DNA of 43,455 nucleotides from a virus: the IMG/VR virus record IMGVR_UViG_3300032516_000058, positions 1 to 43,455 of that record, one strand, 5' to 3'. The position numbers and the translations under genes were made by a program. The notes below the pieces were generated by a model, which was not told the DNA's origin, did no database searches, and worked only from the letters and a program-made list of their open reading frames with translations. Positions 4,658 to 23,410 of the stretch are shown piece by piece; position 1 is the first letter of the stretch; each line of letters starts with the position of its first letter.

Positions 4658-6652
4658 CTAGCGGGCGGCCAGGTACTCGCGGGGCGGCTCCTCGCGGGGC
4701 GGTTTCGATGGCGCCGCCTGCGCGGCGGGTTGCGCCCACGGCCATTGGGCGGCGTCCCAAACCAGGCCGGTCACCATGTCGGCCAGGGCCATGGAGTAAA
4801 CACAGCAATCCCAATAGTGGTTGGGCTTGTCGTGGCTCGGGAGCTCCCAGACGTGGCGGCCCTTCTTGACCACCCGGGTCTCCGCGGTGATCTGGCGGAG
4901 ATACTCTTCGCCATCCGGCTGGTGGAGGATGTCGCACGGAAGCCACCATGCCCCGGGCAGTCTCCGATCGGCGAACCAGCGATCGGCGATCTCCGTCTTG
5001 TAAGCCTGCGTGTCGAGCCCCCAGGCGATCAGGCTCCCCGCAAACCCCTTCCCCGTCGTCGGGTCGATCTCGACGGGCGTCGGCCGCCAGAGTGCCCCGG
5101 GCACGAGCCTCGGGTTGCCGAAGACGGCCATCACCCGCTCGCCGGGGTGGGCCCGGACAAAGGCGTCGACGTCCGCGGGCCGGCCGCCGCGGTCGAGCCC
5201 GATCCTGGCCGCGGCCAGGGCGGAGAACCCGCTGGGATTCTGGCCGTCGACCGGCCAGCGGTAGCGGACCACGCGCGCGTCGAATTGGCGCAGGTCGCTC
5301 GCCAGGTCGACGTTCGGATGGTCGGACACGCCGCTGGGGGTTTCGAGGCGGGGGACGAAGCCCCAGTCAACAAGCCAGGAGGTCTTCTGGTCCCCCCATG
5401 CCCGCACGAGCCACCAGATGCCCCTGGCCTGCATGTCGCCGGCGGCCGTCAGGAAGTACGCCCCGCGCGGGACCACGCCGCGGGGATAGCCGCCAGCCAG
5501 GCGGCGTCCGAGGTCTTTCCACCGCGGGACGAGGCCCCTGGGCTCGTGGGGCAACGCGAGCCAGTCGTTGAAGATCGACTGCATGCCCGACGTGGTGTTG
5601 CGGAGCAAGAGGTACGCCTCGGCCGCGTCGCCGAAGCTGACGGTCGGGGTATAGAGCCGGTTGAGCTGGTAGCCGCGGCGGCGGCCGGCCACCAGCGGGG
5701 TCCCGGTCAGGGAGCCATCGGCGGCCACGCCGCACCCCTCCGGCGCCCACCGGCCCGCGCGGACCACCTGGTTCTTTTCGATCGACTCGATCCGGCAGTC
5801 GCCGACCTCGCAGAGGTAGTAGGCGGCGAGCCGGGCCTGCTCCGGGGTCCTCCAGCGGCCGTCGCCATCCTGGAGCCCGCCGAGGCCGCCCCGGCCCGCA
5901 TTGGGCCCGCTCTTGTGGACGAAGAGCCGCAGCTGCTGGTAGGCGCCGCAGTGCGGGCAGGGGACCCGCCACGTCCGCCGATCGGAATCTTTGTAGAGCG
6001 GCCAGATCCACTGGGAGGCTTCCCTGGGGGACCCCTCATAGACGATACACCATTGGTAGAGCGCCGCCGTCCTCTGCTTGGCCAGCTCGAGCGACTCCTG
6101 CCAGCGGTCGACCTCGCTGCAAAGAACAAGCTTGCACGCACGCCCCGACAGACGCTGGCTCGACCCGGACCACGCAAGATAACACAGGCAGTGGTCGAGG
6201 TCGATGAATCGATCATTGCGGACCCGCTTGGGCGGAACCGCCGCCCGCAACGCCGGGGAGGCTTCGCACAGGCCGTAGATTTTGTCCCGCTCCTCCCGGC
6301 AATAGACCTGGTCCGGGCCGGCGAACATCATCGGCGCCGCCGCGATCGCCCCCTGGCTCGCGACCATCGCGTGCAGGAGCGTGGTCTTGCCCGCCTGGGG
6401 CGCGATGCAGAGGACCAGCTCGCGGACCGCCGGGTCGTCGATCGCGTCCAAGGGCTCGCGGAAATAGGGCCGCTCGGTCAGGTCGAACCGGCCGGGGCGC
6501 GCCGACGTCTTCTCGGGCAGGCGGAGATTCTGCTCGCACCATTCGGAGCGCGCGACCCGTGGGGGTGGGGTCCACGCGGCGACTCCGGCTTCCACCAGGC
6601 GGGAAAACGGGTCCGCAATCACGAGCGCGGCCATCAGCAGGATCCACTTCAC
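4658..6652 (-). CDS. terL: Terminase large subunit, lambda gpA family
   Basis: At 664 residues this is the packaging motor and DNA-cutting subunit. The Walker A-like APQAGKTT is at about 84-91, and the Walker B-like LVLCSEVD is at about 175-182. A zinc knuckle PCPHCG (231-236) is typical of the gpA family. A C-terminal nuclease region ends with NHYWDCCVYSMALADM. The gene starts with GTG at 6652, two codons after the small terminase stop, so the pair is one translational unit. gpA-type terminases usually cut at specific cos sites. This agrees with a genome of defined unit length but does not prove cos packaging here. The C-terminal tail is rich in Pro and Ala. Confidence 0.95.
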   Translation of the reverse strand: MKWILLMAALVIADPFSRLVEAGVAAWTPPPRVARSEWCEQNLRLPEKTSARPGRFDLTERPYFREPLDAIDDPAVRELVLCIAPQAGKTTLLHAMVASQGAIAAAPMMFAGPDQVYCREERDKIYGLCEASPALRAAVPPKRVRNDRFIDLDHCLCYLAWSGSSQRLSGRACKLVLCSEVDRWQESLELAKQRTAALYQWCIVYEGSPREASQWIWPLYKDSDRRTWRVPCPHCGAYQQLRLFVHKSGPNAGRGGLGGLQDGDGRWRTPEQARLAAYYLCEVGDCRIESIEKNQVVRAGRWAPEGCGVAADGSLTGTPLVAGRRRGYQLNRLYTPTVSFGDAAEAYLLLRNTTSGMQSIFNDWLALPHEPRGLVPRWKDLGRRLAGGYPRGVVPRGAYFLTAAGDMQARGIWWLVRAWGDQKTSWLVDWGFVPRLETPSGVSDHPNVDLASDLRQFDARVVRYRWPVDGQNPSGFSALAAARIGLDRGGRPADVDAFVRAHPGERVMAVFGNPRLVPGALWRPTPVEIDPTTGKGFAGSLIAWGLDTQAYKTEIADRWFADRRLPGAWWLPCDILHQPDGEEYLRQITAETRVVKKGRHVWELPSHDKPNHYWDCCVYSMALADMVTGLVWDAAQWPWAQPAAQAAPSKPPREEPPREYLAAR

Positions 6653-6655
6653 GGG

Positions 6656-7168
6656 TCAGTCCTCAATTGCCTCGGCGTGCGCGAAGTTGTCAGTCCCGAG
6701 TAGATCGGCCAAGGCCGAGCATGCGGCGTCGACCCGGGCCTGGACCGCCTGGCGGAGGTTGGCGAGCTGGTCCTGAGGGAGGGACTGACCAAACACGCCG
6801 ACGATCTCCTCCGGGAGCTGTCCGAGGTGCACCCTTGCCTCGCCGATATGGCGGCGAAACAGCCGGCCCACCGCGTCGACCGGGACCAGCTCCCCGAGCG
6901 CCGTTGCCAGTTTCAATTCCTTAAGCCGCGCGTCCGCCTCGTTCAGTCGATCGCGCGGCTTGCTCTGCCCTTGTCGGCCGCCCCCCTGGGCCGCGCGCCA
7001 GGCGGCGATCTCGGCCAGGTCGAAACGCCCGGGGTCGCCCGGCATGCCGCTTGCGCGCCAATTGCCCACCGTGCGGACGGCGACGCCGAAGTGGCTTGCC
7101 ACGTCGGCGATGCGAATTCCCGCGGCTTTCGCGGCCGATTTCGTCCCGGTCTTTCGGCTCTTCGCCAT
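6656..7168 (-). CDS. terS: Terminase small subunit, Nu1-like
   Basis: The 170-residue protein has a winged-helix or HTH unit at about 18-40 (IRIADVASHFGVAVRTVGNW) followed by a long helical region that likely forms the oligomer and binds the large subunit. In lambda, Nu1 recognises cosB and recruits gpA to DNA. The position directly before TerL, with a three-base gap, confirms the role. The Lys-rich N terminus may add non-specific DNA contacts. The packaging site should lie nearby, often in or just upstream of this gene, but I cannot point to it with confidence. Confidence 0.9.
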   Translation of the reverse strand: MAKSRKTGTKSAAKAAGIRIADVASHFGVAVRTVGNWRASGMPGDPGRFDLAEIAAWRAAQGGGRQGQSKPRDRLNEADARLKELKLATALGELVPVDAVGRLFRRHIGEARVHLGQLPEEIVGVFGQSLPQDQLANLRQAVQARVDAACSALADLLGTDNFAHAEAIED

Positions 7169-7274: not shown

Positions 7275-7658
7275 CTACGCCCCCCCCGGGGTAGGACCCA
7301 TTCGCGTGGGGGGGGTGGCCGTCCCACAGGGCCTTCCCTGGCACTTGACGCACCGGGCCGCGGCGGGCAACTCGGCGAGGCGATCGGGATTGATCGCCTT
7401 GCCGCAGTCGACGCACAGCCCATACGTCCCCGCCTCCAGCCGCTCCAGGGCTTCCTCGACCTCTGCGATGCTGTCCGATGCGCGCTCGATACCCTGGACC
7501 AGCTCCGCCCCGTCCTCTGTGTCGCGGGCGGCGTCGCCCAGATCACCAGCGCCCCGATGCACCCCCAACCCTGCGACGAGCCCCGCCTCTCGCGATCGCA
7601 ACGTGCGGAGCATGCCGTCCAGAACCTTCTTGATTTTCGCTAGCCGCTTCCTGGTCAT
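7275..7658 (-). CDS. DksA/TraR-family RNA polymerase-binding zinc-finger protein
   Basis: With the start at 7658 the protein has 127 residues. The zinc finger is canonical: Cys82, Cys85, Cys103 and Cys106 in CVDCGK...RCVKCQ. The coiled-coil tip carries DLGDAA (39-44), a D-x2-D-A pattern like that used by DksA to act inside the polymerase secondary channel. It could redirect host transcription late in infection. I preferred the ATG at 7658 to the one at 7688 because the latter overlaps the upstream gene by 22 bases. It is the first gene upstream of the terminase genes, with a 106-base gap. The C-terminal tail is Pro- and Gly-rich. Confidence 0.88.
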   Translation of the reverse strand: MTRKRLAKIKKVLDGMLRTLRSREAGLVAGLGVHRGAGDLGDAARDTEDGAELVQGIERASDSIAEVEEALERLEAGTYGLCVDCGKAINPDRLAELPAAARCVKCQGRPCGTATPPTRMGPTPGGA

Positions 7659-7666
7659 GGCCTCAC

Positions 7667-7957
7667 TCACAACTTGGTGCAGGCCCATGCCGCGACGGCT
7701 CCGAGGAGCGCGGCAACCAAAGTCGCGATAGCGTTGGCGCCCAGACGCAGAGCGGACAGGCGGATCCGCCTGCCCTCCTCGACCTTTGCGACTCTGTCGT
7801 GCAGGCCGTCGATCGCAACGTCATGCGCCGTTTGCCGTTCCCGGAACGGCGCGAGCGACCCCTTGATCCCGGCGACGTCGAGTCTGACCTGGTCCACCTT
7901 GCCGTGGAGCAATTCCAGGTTCTCGCAGATCGCGCGCAGACTGTATTCATTGCCCAT
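7667..7957 (-). CDS. Small membrane protein, XhlA/holin-like, 96 aa
   Basis: An N-terminal amphipathic or coiled-coil region (about residues 5-65) is followed by one hydrophobic helix at about 74-93 (IATLVAALLGAVAAWAC). This is the plan of XhlA-type holin partners, but I see no decisive motif. GAGAGG lies six bases before the ATG at 7957. It lies in a block of small membrane proteins together with a wall-hydrolase candidate, which favours a lysis role. Inside the gene, 7757-7772 is a perfect 16-base palindrome centred on GGATCC. Confidence 0.7.
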   Translation of the reverse strand: MGNEYSLRAICENLELLHGKVDQVRLDVAGIKGSLAPFRERQTAHDVAIDGLHDRVAKVEEGRRIRLSALRLGANAIATLVAALLGAVAAWACTKL

Positions 7958-7977
7958 CGGAACCTCTCAGTCTGGGC

Positions 7978-8418
7978 TCACGCGGGCTTCGGTCCGGCCG
8001 CGGCAGCGACGCCGGGGGCGGTCGCCGCAGCCAGCTCGGCCTGCAACCATGCCCGCCATCCCGTCCCTTTGGCGTTTTGCAGCGCGGTGATCACCAGCTC
8101 GTGCCGCGTCGGGTCCCGCAACAACTCAGGGATTCCCGTCTTCGCGAATTCAGAAAACAGGGCGACACGCCCCTCTCCCGTCGACAGGTGATCCAGCAAG
8201 TCGCGAGCCTTGACGTAGCAGCCACTGAGGTCGCCGGCGCCCCACGCCAACGCGACCCCCTCTGCATGTTTCGCCCCGATCTTCCCCAGGAAGATCGACA
8301 GCTTGATCGCGATATAGCGCCACTTCTCGAATCTGTTGTGCACCGAGAGGAGCAACTGAATTCCCACGAATCCAGCCAGCGCGCACGCAACGTAGAACCA
8401 CAGGGAGGTCGCGATCAT
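7978..8418 (-). CDS. Membrane-anchored protein of unknown function, 146 aa
   Basis: A single N-terminal hydrophobic segment (about residues 4-25, SLWFYVACALAGFVGIQLLL) precedes a soluble alpha-helical part and an Ala/Pro-rich tail. With only one membrane segment it could be a pinholin-type or signal-anchor protein, or an accessory to the adjacent protease. The start at 8418 is one base after the protease stop, so it is likely translated together with that gene. I do not recognise the family. Confidence 0.65.
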   Translation of the reverse strand: MIATSLWFYVACALAGFVGIQLLLSVHNRFEKWRYIAIKLSIFLGKIGAKHAEGVALAWGAGDLSGCYVKARDLLDHLSTGEGRVALFSEFAKTGIPELLRDPTRHELVITALQNAKGTGWRAWLQAELAAATAPGVAAAAGPKPA

Positions 8419-8419
8419 G

Positions 8420-9595
8420 TCAAGAGCTCCATCCAGTGTGTTGACGGGTCCGGAAGAACACGAAAGCGCCGACGATCGCGCCCCAGGCGAGAAACAGACC
8501 GACGCCGATCAGTTTCGGCAGCCAGTCCGGGGCTTCCGGCTCCGGCTCTTTCGGTGCGATCGCCGGCGGCCGCGGCGTCTCGACCTGGACGGCGACCGGC
8601 GGCGCCGCAGTCGGCGGGGCGGTGGGCGGCAGGGTCGTCACCGGCGCGGGCTTGCGTTTCATCCTGCGCAGCAACTCCAGGCAGGACGGATCGGCGCTCC
8701 CCGCGGGGGAGCATTGTCCGCCCGGCGGAGTTGACGGGGTGACCAGGTGACGGGGTGACGGGGTGACGATAGGCGATCGCTCAGGCGGACGCGGCGGCGG
8801 ATACAGAGACGTCAGCGGCCAGTGGATCAGTCCGATCTGGGTCCCGACCACCTCCGCGCGATCCGTACCCCATAGCACGCCTGCGACCTTGCCCCGGCGA
8901 AAGATCGGCCCGCCTGAGTCGCCGCTACGGGCCTGGCCGGACAACACCAACCAGTTGCCCTCGGTTTGCCCATTCGCCGCAGAGTACCGCAGGAATCGGC
9001 CGCGATTGATCGCCAGCCGGCCGTCACCTCCGAGCCCGCAGCTCACCAGCGGCTCGCCGTCGGGGAGCCGCTTGTCTCCGTCGTCCAGGTCGACGGCGCA
9101 AGGCAGCGTCCCGGCCTCATTTTCCAGTTCTCCGAAGCCGTAGTCCCACGTCGCGTCGCCTCGGGCGCGGACCAGTCGGGCCGACGCCCCACCCGCAAAG
9201 CGGACGACGCGGTCCGTGGTGCCTTGGATCACGTGGTAGGCGGTCAACACCAGCCGGCGGCCGTTCCAATTGACGAGCACGCCAGAGCCGACCGAGCTGA
9301 CGCCGCGCCCTTCGCTTCCCGTCACCCGGCAGACTGCCGCGAACCAAGGCTCTCCCGGCTGCGGGTCGGACGAGGGCCGGTTGGCATACGGGCGCCCCTC
9401 CGGATCGAGCGCCGGCGGTAACGGGGCCTGCCTGGAAAAGCTCCCCGGCAACGACGGCGATAGGATCGACGGTCGGCTCGCCCAGGGCGCCGGGCACGAG
9501 CCCCCCTGGCATCCCTGCGCATGGAGCGGAGCGGGCTGTAGGGCGATCAGCACGAGCACGGCGGCCACAAGGCCGAACTGGCGGAGGGAGAGCAT
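8420..9595 (-). CDS. Exported, membrane-anchored trypsin-like serine protease
   Basis: With the ATG at 9595 the protein has 391 residues. A signal peptide covers about 1-26 (hydrophobic VAAVLVLIALQ, cleavage near LHA). The catalytic triad of the chymotrypsin fold is visible: His121 in TAYHV, Asp151 in TWDYGF, and Ser227 in SGDSGGP. A Pro-rich linker follows (about 265-358) and then a C-terminal membrane helix (about 362-381) with a basic tail. The mature enzyme should therefore sit outside the cytoplasmic membrane, anchored at its C terminus. GGAG lies seven bases upstream of the chosen start. The ORF extends 38 codons further upstream but has no signal peptide there. Part of the linker (VTPSPRHLVTPS) is encoded by a GTGACGGGGTGAC-type repeat. 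It is flanked by small membrane proteins and a hydrolase, so a lysis or envelope role is inferred. Confidence 0.88.
   Translation of the reverse strand: MLSLRQFGLVAAVLVLIALQPAPLHAQGCQGGSCPAPWASRPSILSPSLPGSFSRQAPLPPALDPEGRPYANRPSSDPQPGEPWFAAVCRVTGSEGRGVSSVGSGVLVNWNGRRLVLTAYHVIQGTTDRVVRFAGGASARLVRARGDATWDYGFGELENEAGTLPCAVDLDDGDKRLPDGEPLVSCGLGGDGRLAINRGRFLRYSAANGQTEGNWLVLSGQARSGDSGGPIFRRGKVAGVLWGTDRAEVVGTQIGLIHWPLTSLYPPPRPPERSPIVTPSPRHLVTPSTPPGGQCSPAGSADPSCLELLRRMKRKPAPVTTLPPTAPPTAAPPVAVQVETPRPPAIAPKEPEPEAPDWLPKLIGVGLFLAWGAIVGAFVFFRTRQHTGWSS
8732..8769 (-). repeat. GTGACGGGGTGAC-type repeat inside the protease gene
   Basis: Four near-copies of GGGGTGAC are visible on the plus strand. The tract codes in frame for the linker between the protease domain and the C-terminal membrane helix, so the element has become coding sequence. 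Confidence 0.8.
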
Positions 9596-9624
9596 AGCAA
9601 GGCTCCAGGAGATCGGGAAGGGGC

Positions 9625-9870
9625 TTACTTCAGGGCAGCGACGATTGCGACGAAAGCCACCAGGCCAAGCAGCACGCTGAGGACTATCATCTGCTTCTGC
9701 AACGTGCACACCCTGTCCGAAACGTCAAGGAGACGTAGCCGGCGAACCCGGCGCAACATCCGTGTCTGGTCGTTGCGGACCATCTGGATTTTCGGCGGCG
9801 TCGGCTTGGTCGGCGGCGGGATCACCCGCGGGGCATCGGGGACAACGGACGTGCGTCGCGACGTCGTCAT
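9625..9870 (-). CDS. Small single-span membrane protein, 81 aa
   Basis: The N terminus is Pro- and basic-rich, with RMLRRVRRLRLLD near the middle. One hydrophobic helix closes the protein (about 60-79, MIVLSVLLGLVAFVAIVAAL). This gives a cytoplasmic, positively charged N terminus with a C-terminal anchor, a plan seen in small holins and holin-associated proteins. It lies between the NlpC/P60-like gene and the exported protease. The family is not recognised. A holin role is inferred from topology and context. Confidence 0.65.
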   Translation of the reverse strand: MTTSRRTSVVPDAPRVIPPPTKPTPPKIQMVRNDQTRMLRRVRRLRLLDVSDRVCTLQKQMIVLSVLLGLVAFVAIVAALK

Positions 9871-9882
9871 GACGGCTCCTCA

Positions 9883-10494
9883 CTACGGGACCAGGTGTGC
9901 CTGGTACCTGAAAAAATGGCTCCTCGCGAGGTCGCCGGGCTCGGTGTCGGCGTCCGCCAGCTCCAGAACCGGATCGACGCCGCCGAAGTGGATCGCCTCG
10001 GCGACGGCCGTCGAGCACACCGGCCGGCCCCGGCGCGGGCTTTCGTCGTCAAGATCGGGCTGGGCAAAAAGCCGAACAAAGGCCAAATGGAAGCGGGCCA
10101 TCCGGCCGATCGCCCGCCAACCATAGCGACCCGGGAGGAGTCGCCGCATACATCGGACCGCGCGTTTGCGGCAGAATTCCCGGTCTTCGGTCCAGCGGGA
10201 TTGCGGATTCGTCGCGTACCATGCGAGTCGTCCCGGATAGCTGGGGACCTCTTCCGCCAAGGGCGTGGCCCTGCCGCCCTCCTCGAGCATGCCGAGCAAT
10301 TCCCAGTCGCCGTCCGATCGGTCGCCTTGCCGCGCCAGCATGTCGACGTGGCAGTACCTGGTTCTCCCCGAGGCGCGAATCAAGCGCGAAAACAACCGGC
10401 CGGGAACGTCCCACCAGGCCGTCGTCGGCTCCCAGAGCACGATGTCCGCGGGCTTCATCTGCGCAAGGGCGTCGGCGAGCGTCAGGATCCGCAT
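9883..10494 (-). CDS. Permuted NlpC/P60-like (YiiX-type) cysteine hydrolase
   Basis: The 203-residue protein shows the permuted papain-like plan: PADIVLWEP near the N terminus, then a His49 block (YCHVDM), and a Cys160 block (PVCSTAVAEAIHFGG) near the C terminus. His before Cys is the order of the YiiX/LRAT-type permuted branch. Such enzymes hydrolyse amide or ester bonds, including cell-wall peptides in some members. No signal peptide is present, as in many phage endolysins that rely on a holin. It lies beside several small membrane proteins, so it is the best endolysin candidate in the genome. It overlaps the upstream gene by 13 bases. AAAGGGTGAGG precedes the ATG. Confidence 0.7.
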   Translation of the reverse strand: MRILTLADALAQMKPADIVLWEPTTAWWDVPGRLFSRLIRASGRTRYCHVDMLARQGDRSDGDWELLGMLEEGGRATPLAEEVPSYPGRLAWYATNPQSRWTEDREFCRKRAVRCMRRLLPGRYGWRAIGRMARFHLAFVRLFAQPDLDDESPRRGRPVCSTAVAEAIHFGGVDPVLELADADTEPGDLARSHFFRYQAHLVP

Positions 10495-10835
10495 GCCTCA
10501 CCCTTTGCCATCTTCCGCCGGTGAATCGCTCTGTAGGCTTCGCGCTCGCCGTTGACGAGGTTGAGGCTGAGATCGCCATCCTCGGGTTTGTCGCTCCGGA
10601 GGATGGGCCTTTTCGCCAGCCTCTGTTTCAGCCGGCACAGCCGGCATTCACCGTCGACCATGGCGCCGCACGATGGGCAGCGGCTGAGCCTCTCCCTGGG
10701 GTGCAGGTTGGCGGCCATCGCTCGAACGGTGGACCTCCCTACCCCGACCACCAACGCGATTTTTCGCTGGGAGACTTTTCTGGTTTCGAGCAGTTTCCGG
10801 ATGGCGGCGACCCTGCCGGGATCAAGAAGGTTCAT
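10482..10835 (-). CDS. HTH plus zinc-ribbon putative DNA-binding protein
   Basis: From the ATG at 10835 (117 residues) the N-terminal half is a resolvase-type helix-turn-helix: LDPGRVAAIRKLLETRKVSQ, then KIALVVGVGRSTVRAMA. CPSCG and CRLC (about residues 53-65) follow and could form a zinc ribbon. This looks like a small transcription regulator sitting ahead of the lysis and late genes, so a late-gene switch is possible. An upstream ATG at 10943 would add 36 residues that do not resemble a domain. The 3' end overlaps the next gene. Confidence 0.75.
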   Translation of the reverse strand: MNLLDPGRVAAIRKLLETRKVSQRKIALVVGVGRSTVRAMAANLHPRERLSRCPSCGAMVDGECRLCRLKQRLAKRPILRSDKPEDGDLSLNLVNGEREAYRAIHRRKMAKGEACGS

Positions 10836-11156
10836 ACCAGCCCTGCGTGTGAACTGGCCCACCCCCGAACGCCCGCACTCTAACCTAGATTCCGCGGTCA
10901 AAACAAGCCAGCGGGGGGAATCCCGCGCCCTAAGAGCATTCATGGGCGGAAGATAAGGCCGGCCGCGGCGCCGGGCAATTTGGGGGCGGGCACCCGACGC
11001 CGGGCCGGCCTCGTACTACTCTAGCTGATTCCAGGTATATGCGGAAGGGGGGATTGGGTGAGGGGGTGACGGGGTGACAAGGCGCTGGCAACGACCGCTG
11101 GTCATGCGCGGCCCGGGCGCACCAGGCAGCCCCGCCGCGGGCGCCCGGGCCACTGG
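10836..11156. other. 321-base gap with no convincing gene
   Basis: I see no well-supported gene here. The stretch holds a repeat tract at 11056-11080 and, around 11030-11045, an AT-richer CATATACC on the minus strand that could be a weak -10 element. No matching -35 box is clear. It separates the early or middle genes from the regulator and lysis block, so a middle or late promoter would be expected here. Confidence 0.5.
11056..11080 (+). repeat. GTGACGGGGTGAC-type repeat
   Basis: GGGTGAGGGGGTGACGGGGT and following bases match the tracts at 2463, 8732 and 23868. This copy is intergenic. Confidence 0.8.
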
Positions 11157-11402
11157 TCACGGCGCGAAGCCCTCGCCGACCCGGCCGCGGAACTCGTCCC
11201 AGGTCATGGACGGCAACCCACGCTGGCACCGCGGGCAACGGAGGATCGCCTGGCCGCTCTGTATCCCACCGATCGTCTCCATCGCCCGGTACTCGGCGTA
11301 CCGCACGCCGTCGTGCGGAACGGGCACCGCGAGGATCCGGGCGCCGCAGCCGGCGCAGCAGAATTCCGTGCGGCGTGGGCGTTCATGCGGGACGAGGGCC
11401 AT
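11157..11402 (-). CDS. Zinc-ribbon protein, 81 aa
   Basis: Two Cys pairs (CAGC at about 16-19 and CPRC at about 56-59) frame a beta-rich middle, giving a plain zinc ribbon. It belongs to a set of at least five small Cys-pair proteins in this genome. I see no strong ribosome-binding site at the ATG at 11402. A repeat tract with GGAGGATGAAG lies 70 bases upstream. The role is unknown; binding of nucleic acid or polymerase is possible. Confidence 0.7.
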   Translation of the reverse strand: MALVPHERPRRTEFCCAGCGARILAVPVPHDGVRYAEYRAMETIGGIQSGQAILRCPRCQRGLPSMTWDEFRGRVGEGFAP

Positions 11403-11472
11403 GGCTGGAGTTTACCAGGCGGCCGGCGGGGAAAACGGGCCAGGGGGCGGGGAAACGGTCTTTCGTCTTCAT

Positions 11473-11502
11473 CCTCCGCGTTCTCCGTGCCTCCGTGGTG
11501 AA
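11473..11502 (-). repeat. CACCACGGAGGCACGGAG repeat (copy 1)
   Basis: On the minus strand this reads TTCACCACGGAGGCACGGAG followed by AACGCGGAGG. It sits downstream of the 116-aa gene and upstream of the 81-aa zinc-ribbon gene. It shares nearly every base with the copy at 11879-11908. Confidence 0.9.
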
Positions 11503-11521
11503 TCCCCGTTTCCGGCTTGCC

Positions 11522-11872
11522 CTAATACCAACCATGCGCGAACGGCACGTCGTCTTCGGTGGAGCCTTGCTGCCCGACCAATTGGATGTAGGTGCAGGCA
11601 TAGAGTCGCGCCCTCACGACGTGGTGCGCGATTCGACGGAGCGTGCTGGCGGACGGCCAGACCACCAGTCTCTCCAGGGCGCGCCGCGCCTTCCTCTCCT
11701 GGTGCTCCTGGGCTTGCAGGCACAAGGCGATCGTGAGGTTCTGATAGCGATGCCAGAGGATCCGGCCAGCGGCAGACGGCACCTCGACCCAAGCGGGCAC
11801 GCGATCGGGCCAGCCCATCCGGGCCTGCTCGGCGACGATTGCCAGCTCGATGTCACGACTGAATTGCGGCAT
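11522..11872 (-). CDS. Unknown protein, 116 aa
   Basis: The protein is helical and mildly basic, with Trp and Arg scattered throughout and no membrane segment. The start is well set: an ATG at 11872 preceded by GCGGAGGGAAAGC, where the GGAGG comes from the 3' end of the repeat copy at 11879-11908. It lies between a zinc-ribbon gene and an adenine methyltransferase gene. I do not recognise the family and cannot assign a role. Confidence 0.7.
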   Translation of the reverse strand: MPQFSRDIELAIVAEQARMGWPDRVPAWVEVPSAAGRILWHRYQNLTIALCLQAQEHQERKARRALERLVVWPSASTLRRIAHHVVRARLYACTYIQLVGQQGSTEDDVPFAHGWY

Positions 11873-11914: not shown

Positions 11915-12721
11915 CTACCCGCCTCGAGCCGCGGTGGATCCACCAGGTAGGACCGCCGCGGTGGGCCCGCCTGGGGTCGACCGAGATCGGCGGCTGCCGC
12001 CCTTGGCGGTCCCGCCGCGATCGCCGGCGGCCGCGGCGGACTTGCCGTTGGTGGCCACCAACGCGGCGAGGACCGCCGCCCGCTTGATCGGGTCCAGGGC
12101 CTCGAACCGCCGCGTCCAACGCTGGACGAGGCGGTGGAAGTCGAGTCGCCCGCGCCAGTCGCGGCCAATCCACCGGTCATCGTGGAGCTCGATCGGCGCG
12201 GGATAGTTCATCCACAGGACCTCCACGGCGGGGCCGCCGCGGGTCTGCACGCCGTAGGTCTCCCTGCGCCACCCCTTGAGCATGCGGTCGTAGAGCGCCG
12301 ACTGGTAACCGGAGATCATGATCCAATGCTCCTGCAACCGCAGCAGGGTCAGCAGTAGTTGCTCGTGGTCCCTCGGCGTCATGTCGTGCTGGTAGTAACG
12401 CCGGTTGGGGTCTCGCCGCGTGGCTCGCAGATAGGGCGGATCGCAGTAGATGAAGACCGGCCCCCCGAACTGGCAAAGATCGCCCCGCAAAAACCTGATT
12501 CCATCCGCAGCGTGAAAAACCGTGTTCGGCGGCGCCTGCGGCCGCACCAGGTCGATTGACCGCTGGTCGAGGTCCACCGCGAAACTCTTCAGCGCCGGCC
12601 GTTTGTGCCGCAATATGGCACCGGAGCCCAGGAACGGCTCGATGTAGACGTCGTGCGGCGGGATCTGGTTGACGATCCGCCGCCAGGTGCCGCCCGAGTT
12701 TTTCCCGCCCGGGTAACGCAT
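11915..12721 (-). CDS. D12-class (Dam-like) N6-adenine DNA methyltransferase
   Basis: The enzyme would methylate adenine in a short DNA target using S-adenosylmethionine. MRYPGGK opens the protein as in Dam. The SAM-binding motif is YIEPFLGSG (26-34), and the catalytic DPPY lies at 94-97 (IYCDPPYL). These define the alpha/D12 class. At 268 residues the length is normal, but the last 60 residues are low-complexity, rich in Gly, Arg and Ala, and probably not part of the fold. The ATG at 12721 is preceded by a repeat copy with GCGGAGGAGG. It adjoins the ParB-like gene, whose end overlaps the repeat. Without a partner nuclease nearby, a protective or regulatory role is likely. Confidence 0.92.
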   Translation of the reverse strand: MRYPGGKNSGGTWRRIVNQIPPHDVYIEPFLGSGAILRHKRPALKSFAVDLDQRSIDLVRPQAPPNTVFHAADGIRFLRGDLCQFGGPVFIYCDPPYLRATRRDPNRRYYQHDMTPRDHEQLLLTLLRLQEHWIMISGYQSALYDRMLKGWRRETYGVQTRGGPAVEVLWMNYPAPIELHDDRWIGRDWRGRLDFHRLVQRWTRRFEALDPIKRAAVLAALVATNGKSAAAAGDRGGTAKGGSRRSRSTPGGPTAAVLPGGSTAARGG

Positions 12722-12724
12722 GGT

Positions 12725-14920
12725 TCAGCCTCCTCCGCGTTCTCCGTGCCTCTGTGGTGAGTCCTGGTTTCCGCCCTTCCTTCGCCGGCCGGGCCCGCGG
12801 CCGCCGGGTCTCAGCTCGGCCGGCATCGGCAGGCCGCGCTCGCGTTCCCGCCCGCGCTTGTCCATTCGGACCAAATCCGCCGGGCGGAGCGCCAGGAGCG
12901 CCTCGACGATATCGGTCTTCGTCCATGTGTTCATGTCGCCCCGCCGGCCTCCGTGTTGCTCGGGCCGACTAGCGGCGAAGACCTTCCCCCAACCAAGCAC
13001 CCCCTCGATCATCCCGACTAGTTGCTCCTTGCTGTGCAGCTCCCAGTAGCGGCGCGTCAGCGGCCCGCAGTGGGCCTTGTGCCAAGCCTCTTCCACGTCG
13101 ATCCCCAGGCGGACCGCAAACGCGTTCAGGTCCTCGGCCGGGACGTGGGGGACCGGCTGGCCGGGGTGGCCGGCCTCTTGCTCCCGATCCTTCGCCCAGA
13201 ACATTGCCGCCAACCACACGGCGACGTGGGCCGCGCAGTCGGGGAGCTCACTGAACATGCAGATCGCGGCGGCCGCCGCGTCGTCCTGGAGCATCCGGTT
13301 GCCGGTCTCCCCGGGGATCACGGCCCGGAGCTCCTCGCCGCGGCGGGCGATCTCCCGCTCCTTGCCCGAGGTCCAGGGTGGAAGCGGCCGGCGGCTCGCG
13401 GCGAAGTAAAGCGCGAGCCCGAGGACCATCCCCACGTCGACGTCCCGGCCGTCGCGGAGCCGCTCGGAGAGCAGCCATCGCAGCCAATCCGCCCGGACGG
13501 CTTCCAGCCGCTTCTCGTACTTCTCGGCCGCCTCCGTGGCCCGCGCCTCCGCCTGGCGCCTGGTGAGCTTTTCCGGCTTGTGATCGGCGGCCCGGGCCTT
13601 CGCCTTCCCGGCCTTCGCCGCAGCCGTCTTCCGCCACTCCACCAAAAACGCCCCCTGCCAACTCTTCCAAAGATCGACATGGACCGCCCGCTCCTCCTTG
13701 GCGGCCCCTTTGAGCCCGGTGTGCCGGGGGACCTCGATGATCCCGAGCCGCTCCCGTTGCTCCGGCGTGGGCGTGAAGATCGGGATCTGCTGGACGGCGG
13801 CCGAGTCCCAATCCGTGCCGTCGAGGGGCCGGGTGTTCGTCCGAACCTCCGCGGCCACATCGTGCATGAATTCGTCGTATGACCCGAATTCGATCTTGTC
13901 GCTCCGGCGGGTCCGTTGCTTCAGGAACCGCTCGGCGATCGCCGCCAGCAACTCCGGATGCTCGGCGTAGGGCAGGACCGCCCGGGCGTGGCCGGCCGGC
14001 AGCATTTCCGCGGAAATCCATCCGTGCCAGGGCTCCGCCGGGAGCCGCAGCAGGCCGACCGCGTTCGAGACGCTGGCCTGGCCGGCCCACCCGAGGCGTT
14101 TGGCCAGGTCCTCCTGGGTTATCCCCGCGGCCAGCAGCGACTGGAACCAGAGGGCCCGCTCGATCGGATTGAAGCTCGCCCGCTCTTCGTTGTCCGCGCC
14201 GACCTCCCAGCGGGCCTCGTCGTCGGTCAGCTCGACCACCTCCGCCCGGAGGGTTTCGAGCCCGACCAGCCGGGCCGCGCGGACCCGCCGCTCGCCGGCG
14301 ATCAGCTCGTAGACGAACCCAACTGCCGGCTTTGGTGCGTCGACCGTGCGGACCCGGATCGGGACGAGCTGCCGCGCGCGGAGTGATTCGCCGAGGGCCC
14401 GCAGCTGCTCCTCGGGAAACTCGTGCCTGGTCTGGTAGGGACTGGCGACCACCGCGGCCAATGGCACCAGACGCGATTCCGGGATGGCCGGCAAGACGCC
14501 GCCATCGAGCAATGAAGTATCCGACCGGCCGTTCCCGGTGGTGTGTCGGACCGGCGCCGGCTCGGGTTCCTCGCCTTCGTCCGCCGGCAAGGGGTTCTCT
14601 GCCTGAAAGCCCTTGCGCTCGGCGTACGCGTCGAGATCCTCTTCGGCGGTCTCGAATGTCGGCGACGGGGTGAATCGCTTCAGGACTTGCCGCCGTCCCA
14701 TCTCGTCCTCGGAGACCACACCCCAGCCGTCTCCCACCTCGGCGACGAAAATCCGGCGTCCGCCAAGCCCCCGGAAGACCTGCGGTATGATCTTCATGGG
14801 ATGGTCTGCGAAGCCCCGAAGTGCCCCCTTGGGAGGCTCGGGCAGTGGTCTCGGCGTAGCCAGGTTTAGGTCATGCCGTGCCCGTCGGACCGCTCGTCTC
14901 TTCGCGTTCATAGTAGTCAT
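12725..14920 (-). CDS. ParB/Spo0J-like protein, large (731 aa)
   Basis: A ParB N-terminal domain spans about 148-235, with the CTP-binding-type GERR motif in ELIAGERRVRAARLVG (205-220). An HTH follows (about 266-291, ITQEDLAKRLGWAGQASVSN). The remainder, about 430 residues, is helical and rich in Arg and Ala. ParB proteins bind centromere-like sites; phage ParB-like proteins can also act as nucleases or regulators. No ParA gene is present, so plasmid-style partition is doubtful. The start at 14920 has GCGGAGGAAAAGC in front, provided by a repeat copy. The final residues (DSPQRHGERGGG) are encoded by another copy, showing that the gene ends inside a repeat. It sits between two methyltransferase genes. 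Confidence 0.88.
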   Translation of the reverse strand: MTTMNAKRRAVRRARHDLNLATPRPLPEPPKGALRGFADHPMKIIPQVFRGLGGRRIFVAEVGDGWGVVSEDEMGRRQVLKRFTPSPTFETAEEDLDAYAERKGFQAENPLPADEGEEPEPAPVRHTTGNGRSDTSLLDGGVLPAIPESRLVPLAAVVASPYQTRHEFPEEQLRALGESLRARQLVPIRVRTVDAPKPAVGFVYELIAGERRVRAARLVGLETLRAEVVELTDDEARWEVGADNEERASFNPIERALWFQSLLAAGITQEDLAKRLGWAGQASVSNAVGLLRLPAEPWHGWISAEMLPAGHARAVLPYAEHPELLAAIAERFLKQRTRRSDKIEFGSYDEFMHDVAAEVRTNTRPLDGTDWDSAAVQQIPIFTPTPEQRERLGIIEVPRHTGLKGAAKEERAVHVDLWKSWQGAFLVEWRKTAAAKAGKAKARAADHKPEKLTRRQAEARATEAAEKYEKRLEAVRADWLRWLLSERLRDGRDVDVGMVLGLALYFAASRRPLPPWTSGKEREIARRGEELRAVIPGETGNRMLQDDAAAAAICMFSELPDCAAHVAVWLAAMFWAKDREQEAGHPGQPVPHVPAEDLNAFAVRLGIDVEEAWHKAHCGPLTRRYWELHSKEQLVGMIEGVLGWGKVFAASRPEQHGGRRGDMNTWTKTDIVEALLALRPADLVRMDKRGRERERGLPMPAELRPGGRGPGRRRKGGNQDSPQRHGERGGG
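12732..12760 (-). repeat. CACCACGGAGGCACGGAG repeat (copy 3)
   Basis: This copy encodes the last residues of the ParB-like protein and also supplies GCGGAGG just upstream of the D12 methyltransferase ATG at 12721. Confidence 0.9.
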
Positions 14921-14960: not shown

Positions 14961-15758
14961 CTACCCCTGTTCGAGCAACTCGCGAATCGCCGTGAACAGC
15001 GCCCGCCCCATGGCCATCGGCACGGCGTTGCCCACGGCCTGGCACTTGGCCTCGATCGTCATGCCCGGCAGATCGAAGCCCGCGGGCAGACCCTGCTTCC
15101 GGCACAGCTCCGCAAACATCTCCTTACTTCTCAGGGTTAAACCCAGGCGGGACGTCCCTCTCCGCAGTCCGCCGCCTTTACGCCGCCGATCGCGGCCATT
15201 GCCGATCGTACTCTTGCTGGCGCCGCCGATCGCCGCGTATTCCCAGAGGCTGTTCTCGATGGCGACGCGGGGCAACACCAGGTGCGTCGCACGGCAGCGC
15301 CTCATCCTGGGCCCGTCGCCGCAGATGCAATTCGCCCCCCCGCGCCATCCGAAGGTCAGCCTCCGGAGGCGATTCTGGCTCTCTCCCAGCCAGCGGTTAT
15401 TGAACAACTGCGGATGGACCCCGTAGTCACGGGGCCGTGGAATCGGCGCTCCCCGGACGTTCTCCATGAGAAACCACAACGGCTGGGCCTCCCGCACCAC
15501 CCGCACATACGCGGGGATCAGGTTCCCAAATTTCGGCTTGTGTCCGTTGTGTTTGATGAGGCCCTTCAGCGAGCAAAAGGGCTGGCACGGCGGGCCGCCG
15601 AACACCCCGCCGAACACTCCGGCCGGCGGATGGAAGTTACGGATGTCGCCGCCCCAGAGGACGTCCGGTCCGCGGACAACGCAGAACCGCAACTCCTCAG
15701 CGGCGACGCCGAACAGATCGATCCCCGGAAACACGGACAGGAGCAGGTTAGGGTTCAT
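14961..15758 (-). CDS. C5-cytosine DNA methyltransferase (Dcm family)
   Basis: The enzyme would make 5-methylcytosine. Motif IV GGPPCQPF contains the catalytic Cys58. ENVRGAP (99-105) is motif VI. QNRLRRLTFGW (128-138) is motif VIII, and QAVGNAVP (near 240) is motif X. At 265 residues it is shorter than typical family members (300-400), with the loss in the target-recognition region (about 140-225), which is basic and has a CICGDGPRMRRC cluster. It overlaps the upstream winged-helix gene by 11 bases. It is followed by the ParB-like gene and the D12 methyltransferase, forming a DNA-modification block. I see no cognate endonuclease. Confidence 0.92.
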   Translation of the reverse strand: MNPNLLLSVFPGIDLFGVAAEELRFCVVRGPDVLWGGDIRNFHPPAGVFGGVFGGPPCQPFCSLKGLIKHNGHKPKFGNLIPAYVRVVREAQPLWFLMENVRGAPIPRPRDYGVHPQLFNNRWLGESQNRLRRLTFGWRGGANCICGDGPRMRRCRATHLVLPRVAIENSLWEYAAIGGASKSTIGNGRDRRRKGGGLRRGTSRLGLTLRSKEMFAELCRKQGLPAGFDLPGMTIEAKCQAVGNAVPMAMGRALFTAIRELLEQG

Positions 15759-16264: not shown

Positions 16265-17056
16265 TCATTCGCACCGTGGATAAGCCGGCAAGCCGAGGAC
16301 CGTCCGAAACGAATTCTTCCAGCGGACCTTCGGGTTGCCGCCCACCAGCTCGTAAAGCCTCCGCACCGCCGCCGGCGTCTGCCCCGCCTCGATCCGGGCG
16401 ATCTCCGCCGGGTCCGTCCCGGGCACAACCCGCCGGGCGATCTGGTTCATGCCGCCGACCCAGATCGTGCGGGTCACGTAACGGTCCAGGGCCTTGAGAA
16501 GCCACGGAAAGTCGTAGGTGTCCAGGCACGGCTCGGCGGAGACGCTCGTCTCGAAACCGGCATCGTAGGCCATGCGCAGGGACGCAATGCGGGCCGAGGC
16601 GCTCGGCGCGCCCGGCTCCCAGTAATTCAGCACATTACATCGCAAGGCCCCGATCGTGAATCGGAACTCGATCAGCTCCCGCACGTCACGGAACCTCTCG
16701 ATGATCGCGCCAACGCACGATGGGGTGGGCTTGCTGACGACGAGGACCCGGTTGCCGGCCTCCAGCAAGTGATCGAGGACGTCAAGGCAGGGCTGCAAGA
16801 ACTGCGGCGTGATGTCGTGTGTGGTGGGGAACATCACGGTCCCTGAATACTTCGGGAACCTTCGCCGGACCTGCGCCTCGTTCACTTCGAGGTAGGTTGT
16901 GCCCCACTGCTCGGGCGATTTGATCCGCCGGAATCGCAGGGCCTCGGCCCGGGCGTAGCAGTAGCGGCAGCGGTGCTCGCACCCGCGCACGCAGTTGACG
17001 GACTGGTCGCTCCACTCCAGCGTGCCGCCGCGGGGCTTGGCTGGGCATTTTGTCAT
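16265..17056 (-). CDS. Radical SAM protein, spore-photoproduct-lyase/phage Gp37-like
   Basis: The [4Fe-4S]-binding motif is C-x3-C-x2-C at Cys26, Cys30 and Cys33 (CEHRCRYCYAR), the radical SAM signature. The order GTLEWSDQSVNCVRGCEHRC resembles the start of phage Gp37/Gp68-type radical SAM proteins. The middle (TVMFPTTHDITPQFLQPCLD, then RVLVVSKP and FRFTIGA) resembles the SplB-like barrel. The substrate is unknown. DNA-base repair or base modification fits the neighbouring methyltransferases. GGAGGTGA precedes the ATG. The first four bases overlap the end of the 281-aa gene upstream, so the two are likely co-translated. Confidence 0.85.
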   Translation of the reverse strand: MTKCPAKPRGGTLEWSDQSVNCVRGCEHRCRYCYARAEALRFRRIKSPEQWGTTYLEVNEAQVRRRFPKYSGTVMFPTTHDITPQFLQPCLDVLDHLLEAGNRVLVVSKPTPSCVGAIIERFRDVRELIEFRFTIGALRCNVLNYWEPGAPSASARIASLRMAYDAGFETSVSAEPCLDTYDFPWLLKALDRYVTRTIWVGGMNQIARRVVPGTDPAEIARIEAGQTPAAVRRLYELVGGNPKVRWKNSFRTVLGLPAYPRCE

Positions 17057-21560: not shown

Positions 21561-22736
21561 TCAGCCTTCAGTCTCCATCTGGAAAAGCCTCCGTTGGCGC
21601 CGGTCGGCGGCCGTCCGGCCAAGCCGGCTGCGGCGGGGCTGCTGCATTTGCTCCATCGTCGCGGCCACGATCGTCTTCGAGACGTAGTGGTCGCGGGTCA
21701 TCGCGATCGCGGCGTGCCCGAGTTGTTTCTGCGCGACGTCCATCCGGACCTCCGCTGTCTGGTCCGCACAGCTCTTGCGCAGGGCATGGAACCCCCGCCG
21801 ACGCTGCGCCGGGATCCCCGCCCTGGCCAGCAATTTCGCGCGTACGGTGTGGAGGTGGCGAATGCAGTGCGGCCAGGGGAACACCGCGGCCCGCTCCGTG
21901 CGGATAGCCTCCATCGCCTGCTCCGCCGCGTGGTTCACATAGAACCGCTCGGGCTGGTCGCCCTTGTTGACGCACGCCGGGATCTCCACCCAGAGGCGAC
22001 CGCCCTCGTCGCGGCGGTGCCAGGCGTACTTCACGGCGAGGGCCGCGCCGATCCGCAGACCGGTGTTGTAGACGTAGACGATCAGGGCTTCCCACCAGAG
22101 TGGAGGCGGGACGCCGGGAATCACCGGGACGGTGGCCGACCGGCAAGCCTCGATCCATGCGCTCATCTCCGCCAGCTCGAAATAGTCATCAGGCGCCTTG
22201 TGCCGGGCCCGCGGCAATTTGACGCGGGGCGGGAGCCGGTGGTCCCCGACGATCACTTGGCCGCCGATCCGCCGCCGGCAACGGCCGAAAAGCCCGTGGA
22301 TCGTGGCCGAGTCCTCGCACCGCATGCGCGGGCCGGCCAAGCGGAAGAGGTGGCGTAGGTTGCGACCGTGCGCCCGCAACGTGTTCGGCGAGACGGTCGG
22401 GGCGCCGTGGTGCCCCGGCCGGGCGCGAAGGTAGGCCCAGAACTGGGGGACGTCGCGGGCCTCGCGGATCCGGCAAAGCGGCGGGCCGCCCGTGCTCGCG
22501 TCCCAGAACCTCAGGGTCGATTCATACCCGCGGAGCGTGGCCGGCTTCGCGTCGACGCCGATCCGCTCGGGCCAGGCGAAGAGCCGGAAGAACTCGGTCA
22601 GCGTCAGCCGGGGCGTCAGCCGCAGCGGCGTGGCCGGCGGGGACGTGCTTGGCGCGTCGGGGTCGGGCCGGAAGACGCGGACGGTCGGCAGGGCGGGTGT
22701 GGAACGGGTGCGGGTCTTTCGTTGGGGCTGTGCCAT
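21561..22736 (-). CDS. int: Tyrosine recombinase integrase
   Basis: From the ATG at 22736 the protein has 391 residues. The catalytic set of the tyrosine recombinase family is visible: Arg228 in YNTGLRIGAAL, a Lys near 258 (NKGD), His317-x-x-Arg320 in GFHALRK, His341 in QLGHA, and Tyr351 in TRDHYVS. An N-terminal core-binding (SAM-like) domain spans about 45-170. The enzyme inserts the phage into the host chromosome at attB. GAGGAG lies 11 bases upstream of the start. The open frame extends 52 codons further upstream, but that part lacks domain character. Paired repeats (22893-22985) and a tRNA fragment (23632-23673) upstream suggest attP is next to the gene. Confidence 0.94.
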   Translation of the reverse strand: MAQPQRKTRTRSTPALPTVRVFRPDPDAPSTSPPATPLRLTPRLTLTEFFRLFAWPERIGVDAKPATLRGYESTLRFWDASTGGPPLCRIREARDVPQFWAYLRARPGHHGAPTVSPNTLRAHGRNLRHLFRLAGPRMRCEDSATIHGLFGRCRRRIGGQVIVGDHRLPPRVKLPRARHKAPDDYFELAEMSAWIEACRSATVPVIPGVPPPLWWEALIVYVYNTGLRIGAALAVKYAWHRRDEGGRLWVEIPACVNKGDQPERFYVNHAAEQAMEAIRTERAAVFPWPHCIRHLHTVRAKLLARAGIPAQRRRGFHALRKSCADQTAEVRMDVAQKQLGHAAIAMTRDHYVSKTIVAATMEQMQQPRRSRLGRTAADRRQRRLFQMETEG

Positions 22737-23410
22737 TGGTGTGCTACTCCTCGGGGTGCTCGTGTTCGGCCAACCGGCCGCGCATGCCCGAGTCTTCCTG
22801 GCCTCAAACCGCGCTCGTCCGTGCGCGGGCGCGCACGGTGGGCGCAGGGAGTCGACCTCTACGCCCACCGCACGCTGCGCGCCGGAGACCAAACTAGGGT
22901 TGCGGCCTCACCGCCAAAAGCTGGTAAAGACGGCCGCAACTGACACACGTGGGGCGAGTCAGATCGCACTCGGCCGCACCCTAGTCTTGGGCCCGTTAGG
23001 GTCTTTACTGAGTCAGGTGTGGGGCGAGGCAGGTCATGAGACGCCAGCTTTTTGCCTGGGGCCCGCTGGGGCCCGATCAAACGTAAGCGGCGGCGAGTTT
23101 GGCAGAGCCGGAGGCACAAATCAACCGGGGACGCCATTTTGTGGGTGTTGGCCGAGAGACCTACTACCTGTAGTACCTACCACCCGGAAGAGCTTGTGGG
23201 AAACCATAATGGCCAGGAACGGCATGCACGTTCCCCAAGAAAGGTAGGCTTTCCTGGGGGCGGCTCGCCCGCGGTTCGGCGGGTCCGGTTGCTTACGTTC
23301 GACCAGTGCTGGCATGCAGCCTCTGAGAGAACACCGGACCCGCCGAATCGGGGGCAAAGCCAGGCCATCTGCCAAGGTGACAGATGCTATCGGCTCCCCC
23401 GTTGGCGTTA
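22737..23410. other. Integration region without a convincing gene; paired repeats and hairpins
   Basis: This 674-base stretch has no gene I can support; the longer open frames are Arg/Pro-rich. It contains the inverted pair ACTAGGGTTGCGGCC (22893-22907) and GGCCGCACCCTAGT (22972-22985). GTGGGGCGAG followed by TCAG or GCAG occurs twice, near 22950 and 23021. There is a hairpin at 23233-23259 (CCCCAAGAAAG, loop GTAGG, CTTTCCTGGGG). A larger inverted repeat lies at 23275-23289/23333-23347. Such repeats are expected for integrase arm sites, an excisionase site and a promoter. Confidence 0.5.
23275..23347. repeat. Perfect 15-base inverted repeat with a 43-base loop
   Basis: TTCGGCGGGTCCGGT at 23275-23289 and ACCGGACCCGCCGAA at 23333-23347 are exact reverse complements. 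The loop carries GCATGC. The structure could be a binding site for a dimeric regulator or the boundary of a small insertion. Confidence 0.7.

Follow-up and report, generated by a model that had tools for sequence, protein, structure and literature searches.

The lysis cassette of tailed phages comprises a holin, an endolysin and a spanin, the last being either an outer-membrane lipoprotein with an inner-membrane partner or a single protein that spans the periplasm. In mycobacteriophages, LysB is an additional enzyme for a third envelope layer (PMC8309991). Here, we describe a gene block from a virus record of 43,455 bases (IMGVR_UViG_3300032516_000058; hereafter, the window) that resembles these cassettes in that a hydrolase and small membrane proteins are clustered near the packaging genes, with an extra enzyme that may serve a host-specific layer. 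It differs in that the extra enzyme is a predicted exported protease and in that no endolysin or spanin was recognised. On balance, we read the block as a cassette with which a temperate phage of planctomycetes probably opens the host envelope, for lysis or particle release. This reading is favoured by the position of the block beside the packaging genes, the constant pairing of its two enzymes and their fusion in one locus, their intact active sites, the exchange of one protease class for another and the retention of the cassette together with head genes in elements for which no integrase or tail was recognised.

An earlier note on this DNA, made from the letters alone, had named a permuted NlpC/P60-like hydrolase, three one-span membrane proteins and a trypsin-like protease between positions 7275 and 10494. 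All of these are present on the minus strand, and we add to them a DksA/TraR-type zinc-finger protein (7275–7688), which is probably a regulator and not a lysis protein. On the minus strand, the order is helix-turn-helix (HTH)/zinc protein, C92 hydrolase, TM1, protease, TM2, TM3, DksA-like protein, terminase small subunit (TerS), terminase large subunit (TerL), two small open reading frames (ORFs) and portal. The features are as follows (lengths in amino acids, aa; values are E values):

10482..10835, minus strand: HTH and zinc-ribbon regulator-like protein (weak HTH_3 and zinc-ribbon matches, below cut-off; start picked by comparison)
9883..10494, minus strand: C92 (YaeF/YiiX-like, permuted NlpC/P60) hydrolase, 203 aa (profile against PDB, alignment A12)
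9625..9870, minus strand: TM1, 81 aa, basic N-terminus and single C-terminal membrane span (hydropathy)
8420..9595, minus strand: predicted exported trypsin-fold serine protease, 391 aa (Trypsin_2, AlphaFold2 model, Foldseek, triad columns)
7978..8418, minus strand: TM2, 146 aa, N-terminal membrane span (alignment A11)
7667..7957, minus strand: TM3, 96 aa, C-terminal membrane span (phrog_937 hemolysin, 0.0022; phrog_5225, 0.00044)
7275..7688, minus strand: DksA/TraR-type zinc-finger protein (PF01258, 1.9e-10; phrog_54, 4.6e-7)
6656..7168, minus strand: TerS (phrog_57, 3.6e-21)
4658..6652, minus strand: TerL, GpA type (PF05876, 7.2e-39; PF20454, 1.6e-38)
21561..22892, minus strand: tyrosine-type integrase (PF00589, 2.6e-7), from which the phage is probably temperate

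The strongest support comes from recurrence of the enzyme pair. We searched 397 genomes belonging to the class of an Isosphaeraceae genome (L149; we take the class name to be Planctomycetia) with a C92 profile (A6), which returned 39 matches in 34 of the 397 genomes, together with 8 viral contigs, one being L002, the close relative described below. Strong matches (E≤1e-50) numbered 29 and, once one at a contig end (G079) was dropped, 28 loci in 27 genomes were assessable. At each of these 28 loci, a co-directional gene for a protease of the window family lies 3′ of C92, and the protease domain begins no more than 1.4 kb from the start of the C92 ORF; L221 and L232 had helped to build the profiles, and the other 26 loci had not. 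As background, the protease profile found only two further matches in 533 kb from ten of these genomes. In L232, the two enzymes form a single ORF of 644 aa that has a membrane span inside it; from where the C92 portion ends up to this span, there is no ATG, GTG or TTG. TerL was found in the fetched stretch at 24 of the 28 loci; of the other four, three stop at a contig edge and L296 does not. Homologues of the HTH/zinc-ribbon protein lie 5′ of the C92 gene in L232, L233, L267, L279, L283, L289 and L291. The protease is a recurring element across related (pro)phages, and its linkage to the hydrolase and to small membrane proteins, which the earlier note proposed to look for, is conserved, though a small one-span ORF is not seen at every locus.

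Among the ten weaker C92 matches, a trypsin-family neighbour was found in L299, L300 and L303 and a C39-like one in L298, and no protease was recognised at six (L301, L302 and L304–L307), of which L305 and L306 look like host genes and L302 was read over a limited stretch. In a control drawn from the phylum of a Kiritimatiellota genome, C92-like proteins occurred in 17 of 337 genomes (23 matches, best E value 1.7e-18), with a protease of the window family at none of the eight fetched loci. Nor was such a protease found at seven planctomycete prophage loci that have a GpA-type TerL and no C92 gene (L222, L224–L229).

The one close IMG/VR relative, IMGVR_UViG_3300031834_001941 (L002), carries the whole block, including the protease, whose absence from close relatives had been put forward as an outcome that would tell against a lytic role. 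Identity between L002 and the window is 91% for TerL, 78% for C92, 64% for the protease, 72% for TM1 and 32% for each of TM2 and TM3, the last two being much less conserved than their neighbours. For the protease, non-synonymous divergence (dN) is 0.27 and synonymous divergence (dS) 0.66, and dN is also below dS for C92 and TerL. Apart from L002, TerL identity does not exceed 31% among the phage and IMG/VR matches listed, whereas the three best TerL relatives among the 397 planctomycete-class genomes are 38–43% identical, which bears out the suggested planctomycete link. In one of the three, L221, C92, protease, TerS and TerL are arranged as in the window. Between its protease and terminase genes, L221 also encodes a DNA/RNA non-specific endonuclease (PF01223, 1.4e-40; 10648–11514, minus strand) that has an N-terminal membrane span. 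A tblastn search of 50,697 phage records with the protease and C92 sequences gave no match at E≤1; scans of viral contigs with the protease, TerL or a two-row C92 alignment returned one contig only, and a TerL scan of genome contigs returned no relative. A deeper TerL scan reached at least 80 contigs, and in those listed, tblastn with the protease and C92 sequences of the window found nothing at 1e-3.

The window protease matches Trypsin_2 (E value 6.9e-16, 59.7 bits against a cut-off of 27.6) and has His, Asp and Ser in the order expected of a trypsin-like (S1) peptidase. The residues given in the earlier note, His121, Asp151 and Ser227, are correct: these columns are invariant in 36/36 proteases of alignment A13, which excludes L270 and L271, and with L270 inspected separately the triad is intact in 36 of the 37 proteases checked, L271 standing outside this count. 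A signal peptide is followed by a Cys/Gly-rich N-terminus, the catalytic domain (approximately residues 80–270), a Pro-rich linker and a C-terminal helix (359–387). The AlphaFold2 model is confident for residues ~80–270, places helices at 4–19 and 359–387 and is of low confidence in the linker; it agrees with the signal peptide and C-terminal anchor proposed earlier, both of which are predicted from hydropathy and the model. Together, they suggest that the catalytic domain is probably outside the inner membrane, in the periplasm, and tethered to the inner membrane by the C-terminal helix, rather than at the cell surface, where the earlier note had placed it. Across the 28 loci, a hydrophobic N-terminal stretch lies 5′ of the protease domain in all, and a C-terminal hydrophobic stretch (mean hydropathy ≥1.2), often weak, follows it in 27; for L232 and L273, the script used did not assign a start codon to the protease.

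Foldseek comparison of the model with PDB returned RsgI9 S1C, DegP, DegQ, DegS, HtrA and other trypsin folds, with RsgI9 S1C and DegP best and identities of 15–21% among the matches listed. The window protease resembles HtrA/DegP/DegS and RsgI9 S1C in its trypsin fold, signal peptide and predicted envelope location; it differs from them in its low identity, its C-terminal anchor, its phage late-gene neighbourhood and the lack of a PDZ domain after the protease domain (no Pfam PDZ family at E≤1), the last of which sets it apart from HtrA/DegP. Of the features of a spanin, a C-terminal span and linker are present and a clear lipobox was not seen by eye; no spanin-named family occurred among the PHROGs matches of the block proteins.

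Other enzymes appear in the same slot. Seven of the eight viral C92 records have a Trypsin_2 match, which lies beside the C92 gene in six. The eighth record, L268, instead encodes a protein whose N-terminus is of membrane type and whose Cys-His-Asp pattern we take to be like that of C39 peptidases; a protein 38% identical to it lies beside C92 in the genome locus L298. As this protein has no Pfam peptidase match and its similarity to a putative C39-like peptidase (PDB 3erv, E value 0.88) is not significant, the replacement of the trypsin-like protease by a C39-like enzyme in L268 and L298 is tentative. In L346 and L350, whose genomes gave no C92 match, the place usually taken by C92 and the trypsin-like protease contains subtilisins (12108–13133 and 10539–11582, respectively, minus strand; PF00082, 4.1e-61 and 3.6e-63) that are 60% identical to one another and adjoin a conserved protein of 455/458 aa with a CxxCH-type motif, with further small proteins beside the subtilisin. 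In L265, the protease carries a fused thioredoxin (PF00085, 1.8e-18); in L300, a thioredoxin is its neighbour (1.5e-6), and in L266 the thioredoxin match falls below cut-off.

The C92 protein of the window gave no Pfam match alone. A profile of 42 relatives, however, matched PDB entries 3kw0 (3.2e-10) and E. coli YiiX (2if6, 2.6e-7), and nine of the 42 members matched PF05708 at E≤1 (best 3.7e-6). Asp17, His49, Tyr124 and Cys160 are invariant in 42/42 aligned members (A12), the His preceding the Cys as in the permuted enzymes, and the earlier designation of a permuted NlpC/P60-like hydrolase can, therefore, be narrowed to a C92-like one. No hydrophobic N-terminus was seen, and the AlphaFold2 model (pLDDT 39) was too poor for use. 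The protein resembles E. coli YiiX, Bacillus cereus 3kw0 and the type VI secretion effector Tox-Act1 in the permuted His-then-Cys order, with profile-level similarity to YiiX and 3kw0; it differs in being phage-encoded and in having a predicted exported protease as partner or fusion. Permuted NlpC/P60 members are described as directed at lipids or lipid-linked amides, Tox-Act1 is reported to be a phospholipase and a peptide substrate for YiiX is argued against (PMC3142127, PMC12994826). Peptidoglycan hydrolase is, therefore, not a safe guess for this enzyme, the proposed partnership of a peptidoglycan hydrolase with the protease becomes doubtful and, by analogy, a lipid-directed activity is more likely than a peptidoglycan-directed one.

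In the mechanism we propose, the one-span proteins would act as holins or holin partners, and the C92 enzyme would attack membrane lipids or lipoproteins, peptidoglycan being less likely. The protease, anchored to the inner membrane through its C-terminal helix and borne on a stalk that is proline-rich or a coiled coil, would cut the protein layer of the envelope, and the exported thioredoxin of some relatives could first open disulfides in that layer. A protein-rich envelope, as the earlier note supposed for the host, is described in print for Planctomyces maris, where it is rich in Pro and Cys and stabilised by disulfides (PMC3035269). Also in favour of this reading, no peptidoglycan endolysin or other lysin was recognised among 36 distinct window proteins searched against PHROGs and/or Pfam. 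As for the membrane proteins, TM1 is holin-like by size only, with no informative family match in Pfam or PHROGs, and TM3 weakly resembles the phage 'hemolysin' family phrog_937. Loosely similar proteins to TM2 occur in the cassettes of L298, L300, L304 and L268 (A11), at 18–30% identity, so its homology across cassettes is tentative. The unusual lysis strategy suggested earlier is partly supported: the planctomycete link, the synteny and the recurring protease speak for it, the surface location is not supported and a peptidoglycan-hydrolase partner is doubtful.

Several observations weigh against an envelope-opening role. Planctomycetes are described as having peptidoglycan and an outer membrane (PMC5394234), and no clear enzyme for either was seen in the window; as most tail-region proteins have no family match and some window ORFs were outside the scans, an unrecognised endolysin could exist. 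A cultured planctomycete is reported to release a phage without lysis (PMC10945688). The pairing has its irregularities: a small one-span ORF lies 3′ of C92 at only 21 of the 28 loci, the pair follows TerL and portal in L270 and L271 instead of preceding them, and the trypsin of viral record L269 is ~18 kb from the C92 gene. Divergence of C92 and of the protease is weakly correlated (rho 0.25, 46 of 1000 permutations as high), suggesting that the protease may be exchanged among cassettes. The protease homologue beside C92 in L270 (6507–7451, plus strand) has neither the catalytic His nor the catalytic Ser and is probably a pseudo-enzyme. The C-terminal hydrophobic segment is weak in many proteases and missing in L278, and inspection by eye shows no signal peptide in the subtilisins of L346 and L350, so not every protease in the slot is predicted to be exported. 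Finally, we infer lysis, substrate, expression timing, export and tethering of the protease from sequence.

At many of the loci, the cassette lies beside one particular host gene. This gene, c8 (by eye, of the endonuclease/exonuclease/phosphatase type), is located 5′ of the cassette in 15 of the 28 loci (L274–L277, L280, L281, L283, L285, L286, L288, L290 and L292–L295), being inverted in L290; a second host gene, c11, is also present in 13 of the 15, and TerL falls in the read stretch in 14. Ten genomes, eight of them with c8, were read from −6 to approximately +46 kb: C92/protease, ABC-GNAT, TerL, portal, c4 and capsid are present in 10/10, and the cassette heads a phage-head gene cluster of 14–15 kb. 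In one genome, PHROGs confirmed the identity of portal, decoration, capsid and TerS, and in a second that of TerL; none of c10, c12 and c25 had a match, and the best match of c20 was of unknown function, followed by weak structural matches and weak tail-family ones (0.0021, 0.028). Neither inspection by eye nor the scan of ten proteins revealed an integrase, a tail tube or a tape measure, a survey that included no integrase or tail profile search and left unclustered ORFs unscanned, among them a few phage-like ones that follow c10 in G055. Part of the element is inverted in L273, taken with L325 (genome G387): capsid, decoration and c4 are upstream on the other strand and c8 is downstream.

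The pairwise identities of four element genes track those of c11 (rho 0.44–0.61; 0 to 1 of 1000 permutations as high). Against c8, the relationship is clear only for the protease (rho 0.48, 1/1000) and C92 (rho 0.30, 9/1000), and not for ParB (81 permutations as high) or ABC (197). The gene c8 occurs in 139 of the 397 genomes. Eight c8 loci from genomes without a C92 match comprised two with head genes and a subtilisin, one with host flank to the contig edge and five with c8 alone; the two with a subtilisin are L346 and L350, where the same head genes follow c8, L346 also having flank genes c11, c13, c14 and c15 and L350 only c8. These patterns suggest an old element with mostly vertical inheritance and some loss or exchange. 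The cluster is a candidate domesticated or gene transfer agent-like particle. Gene transfer agents are inherited vertically at a conserved locus, encode a complete tailed particle, and package and transfer host DNA. The fixed-locus element is similar in being phage-derived and conserved, with host flank genes common across species; it differs in that no tail genes were recognised. The fuller proposal, in which lysis is proteolytic (a tethered protease of variable class, a lipid-directed C92 enzyme and, in some cases, thioredoxin) and hosts have domesticated this machinery along with genes for the head and for packaging, to give an element at one locus that is inherited vertically and forms particles without tails, is one we advance tentatively and with less confidence than the envelope-opening role itself.

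Among the other explanations, the one with most to recommend it, though we think it unlikely, is lysogenic conversion or superinfection exclusion, in which a membrane-held protease would trim envelope proteins of the lysogen such as phage receptors. An exported, tethered protease, as predicted here, would suit that role in an integrase-bearing phage, and its greater divergence relative to TerL (64% vs 91% identity to L002) is what an arms race would give. However, the protease gene adjoins and is co-directional with the terminase genes and is paired with C92 and small membrane proteins, and the cassette is kept alongside genes for the head and for packaging in elements in which neither an integrase nor a tail was recognised, which argues against conversion. 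An HtrA/RsgI-like stress protease that senses the envelope or triggers a host response is much less probable: RsgI9 S1C and DegP are indeed the top structural matches, but identities are low, there is no PDZ match, and the recurrent pairing with C92 and replacement by a subtilisin are unlike a dedicated signalling protease.

Slightly less credible still is a role in maturing a protein of the virion or one that is exported. Phage head genes often include a protease, but a separate S49-like ORF (by eye) lies on the capsid side of the window, a signal peptide and anchor fit poorly with an internal virion protease, and unrelated protease classes occupy the slot. We give least credence to an anti-phage defence unit carried by the prophage, as the PADLOC matches that would suggest one (PDC-M35A, 4.1e-6, in the window; LmuA, 7.2e-11, in L265; RT-Protease_XI, 5.6e-10, in L232) are partial, and the best of them fall within the shared protease domain; PADLOC matches neither the C92 protein nor any of the three small membrane proteins, and the recurrent position by packaging genes also tells against defence. 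Envelope opening for particle release, thus, remains the explanation that we favour.

The planctomycete envelope has long been described as protein-based, and among the matches listed, how phages exit from planctomycetes is a question unanswered in the open-licence literature. Among the papers listed on planctomycete phages and prophages, endolysins, spanins, lysis cassettes with a serine protease and gene transfer agents, none describes such a cassette or element in its title or the start of its abstract. An intact prophage is mentioned for Zavarzinella formosa (PMC7947584). The protease and C92 cassette offers a testable molecular answer to that question, its proteins are candidate enzymes for opening planctomycete envelopes, and it could serve as a marker for planctomycete phages in metagenomes. 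If our interpretation is right, the fixed-locus head element with its cassette could be a new kind of domesticated phage particle.

With regard to the rest of the window, its ends overlap imperfectly (140 bases, 97%; 4–143 vs 43316–43455), and the S49-like ORF runs off its start, with the capsid gene at the opposite end, which points to a probably circular genome that is nearly complete. The window encodes three DNA methyltransferases of different classes (N6/N4, D12 and C5, at 1622–2461, 11915–12721 and 14961–15758), a Radical-SAM/DUF5131-like protein (16265–17056; both Pfam matches below cut-off; phrog_13321, 7.2e-13) and, at 35045–36862, a tail-region protein with a G8 domain (PF10162, 1.3e-5).

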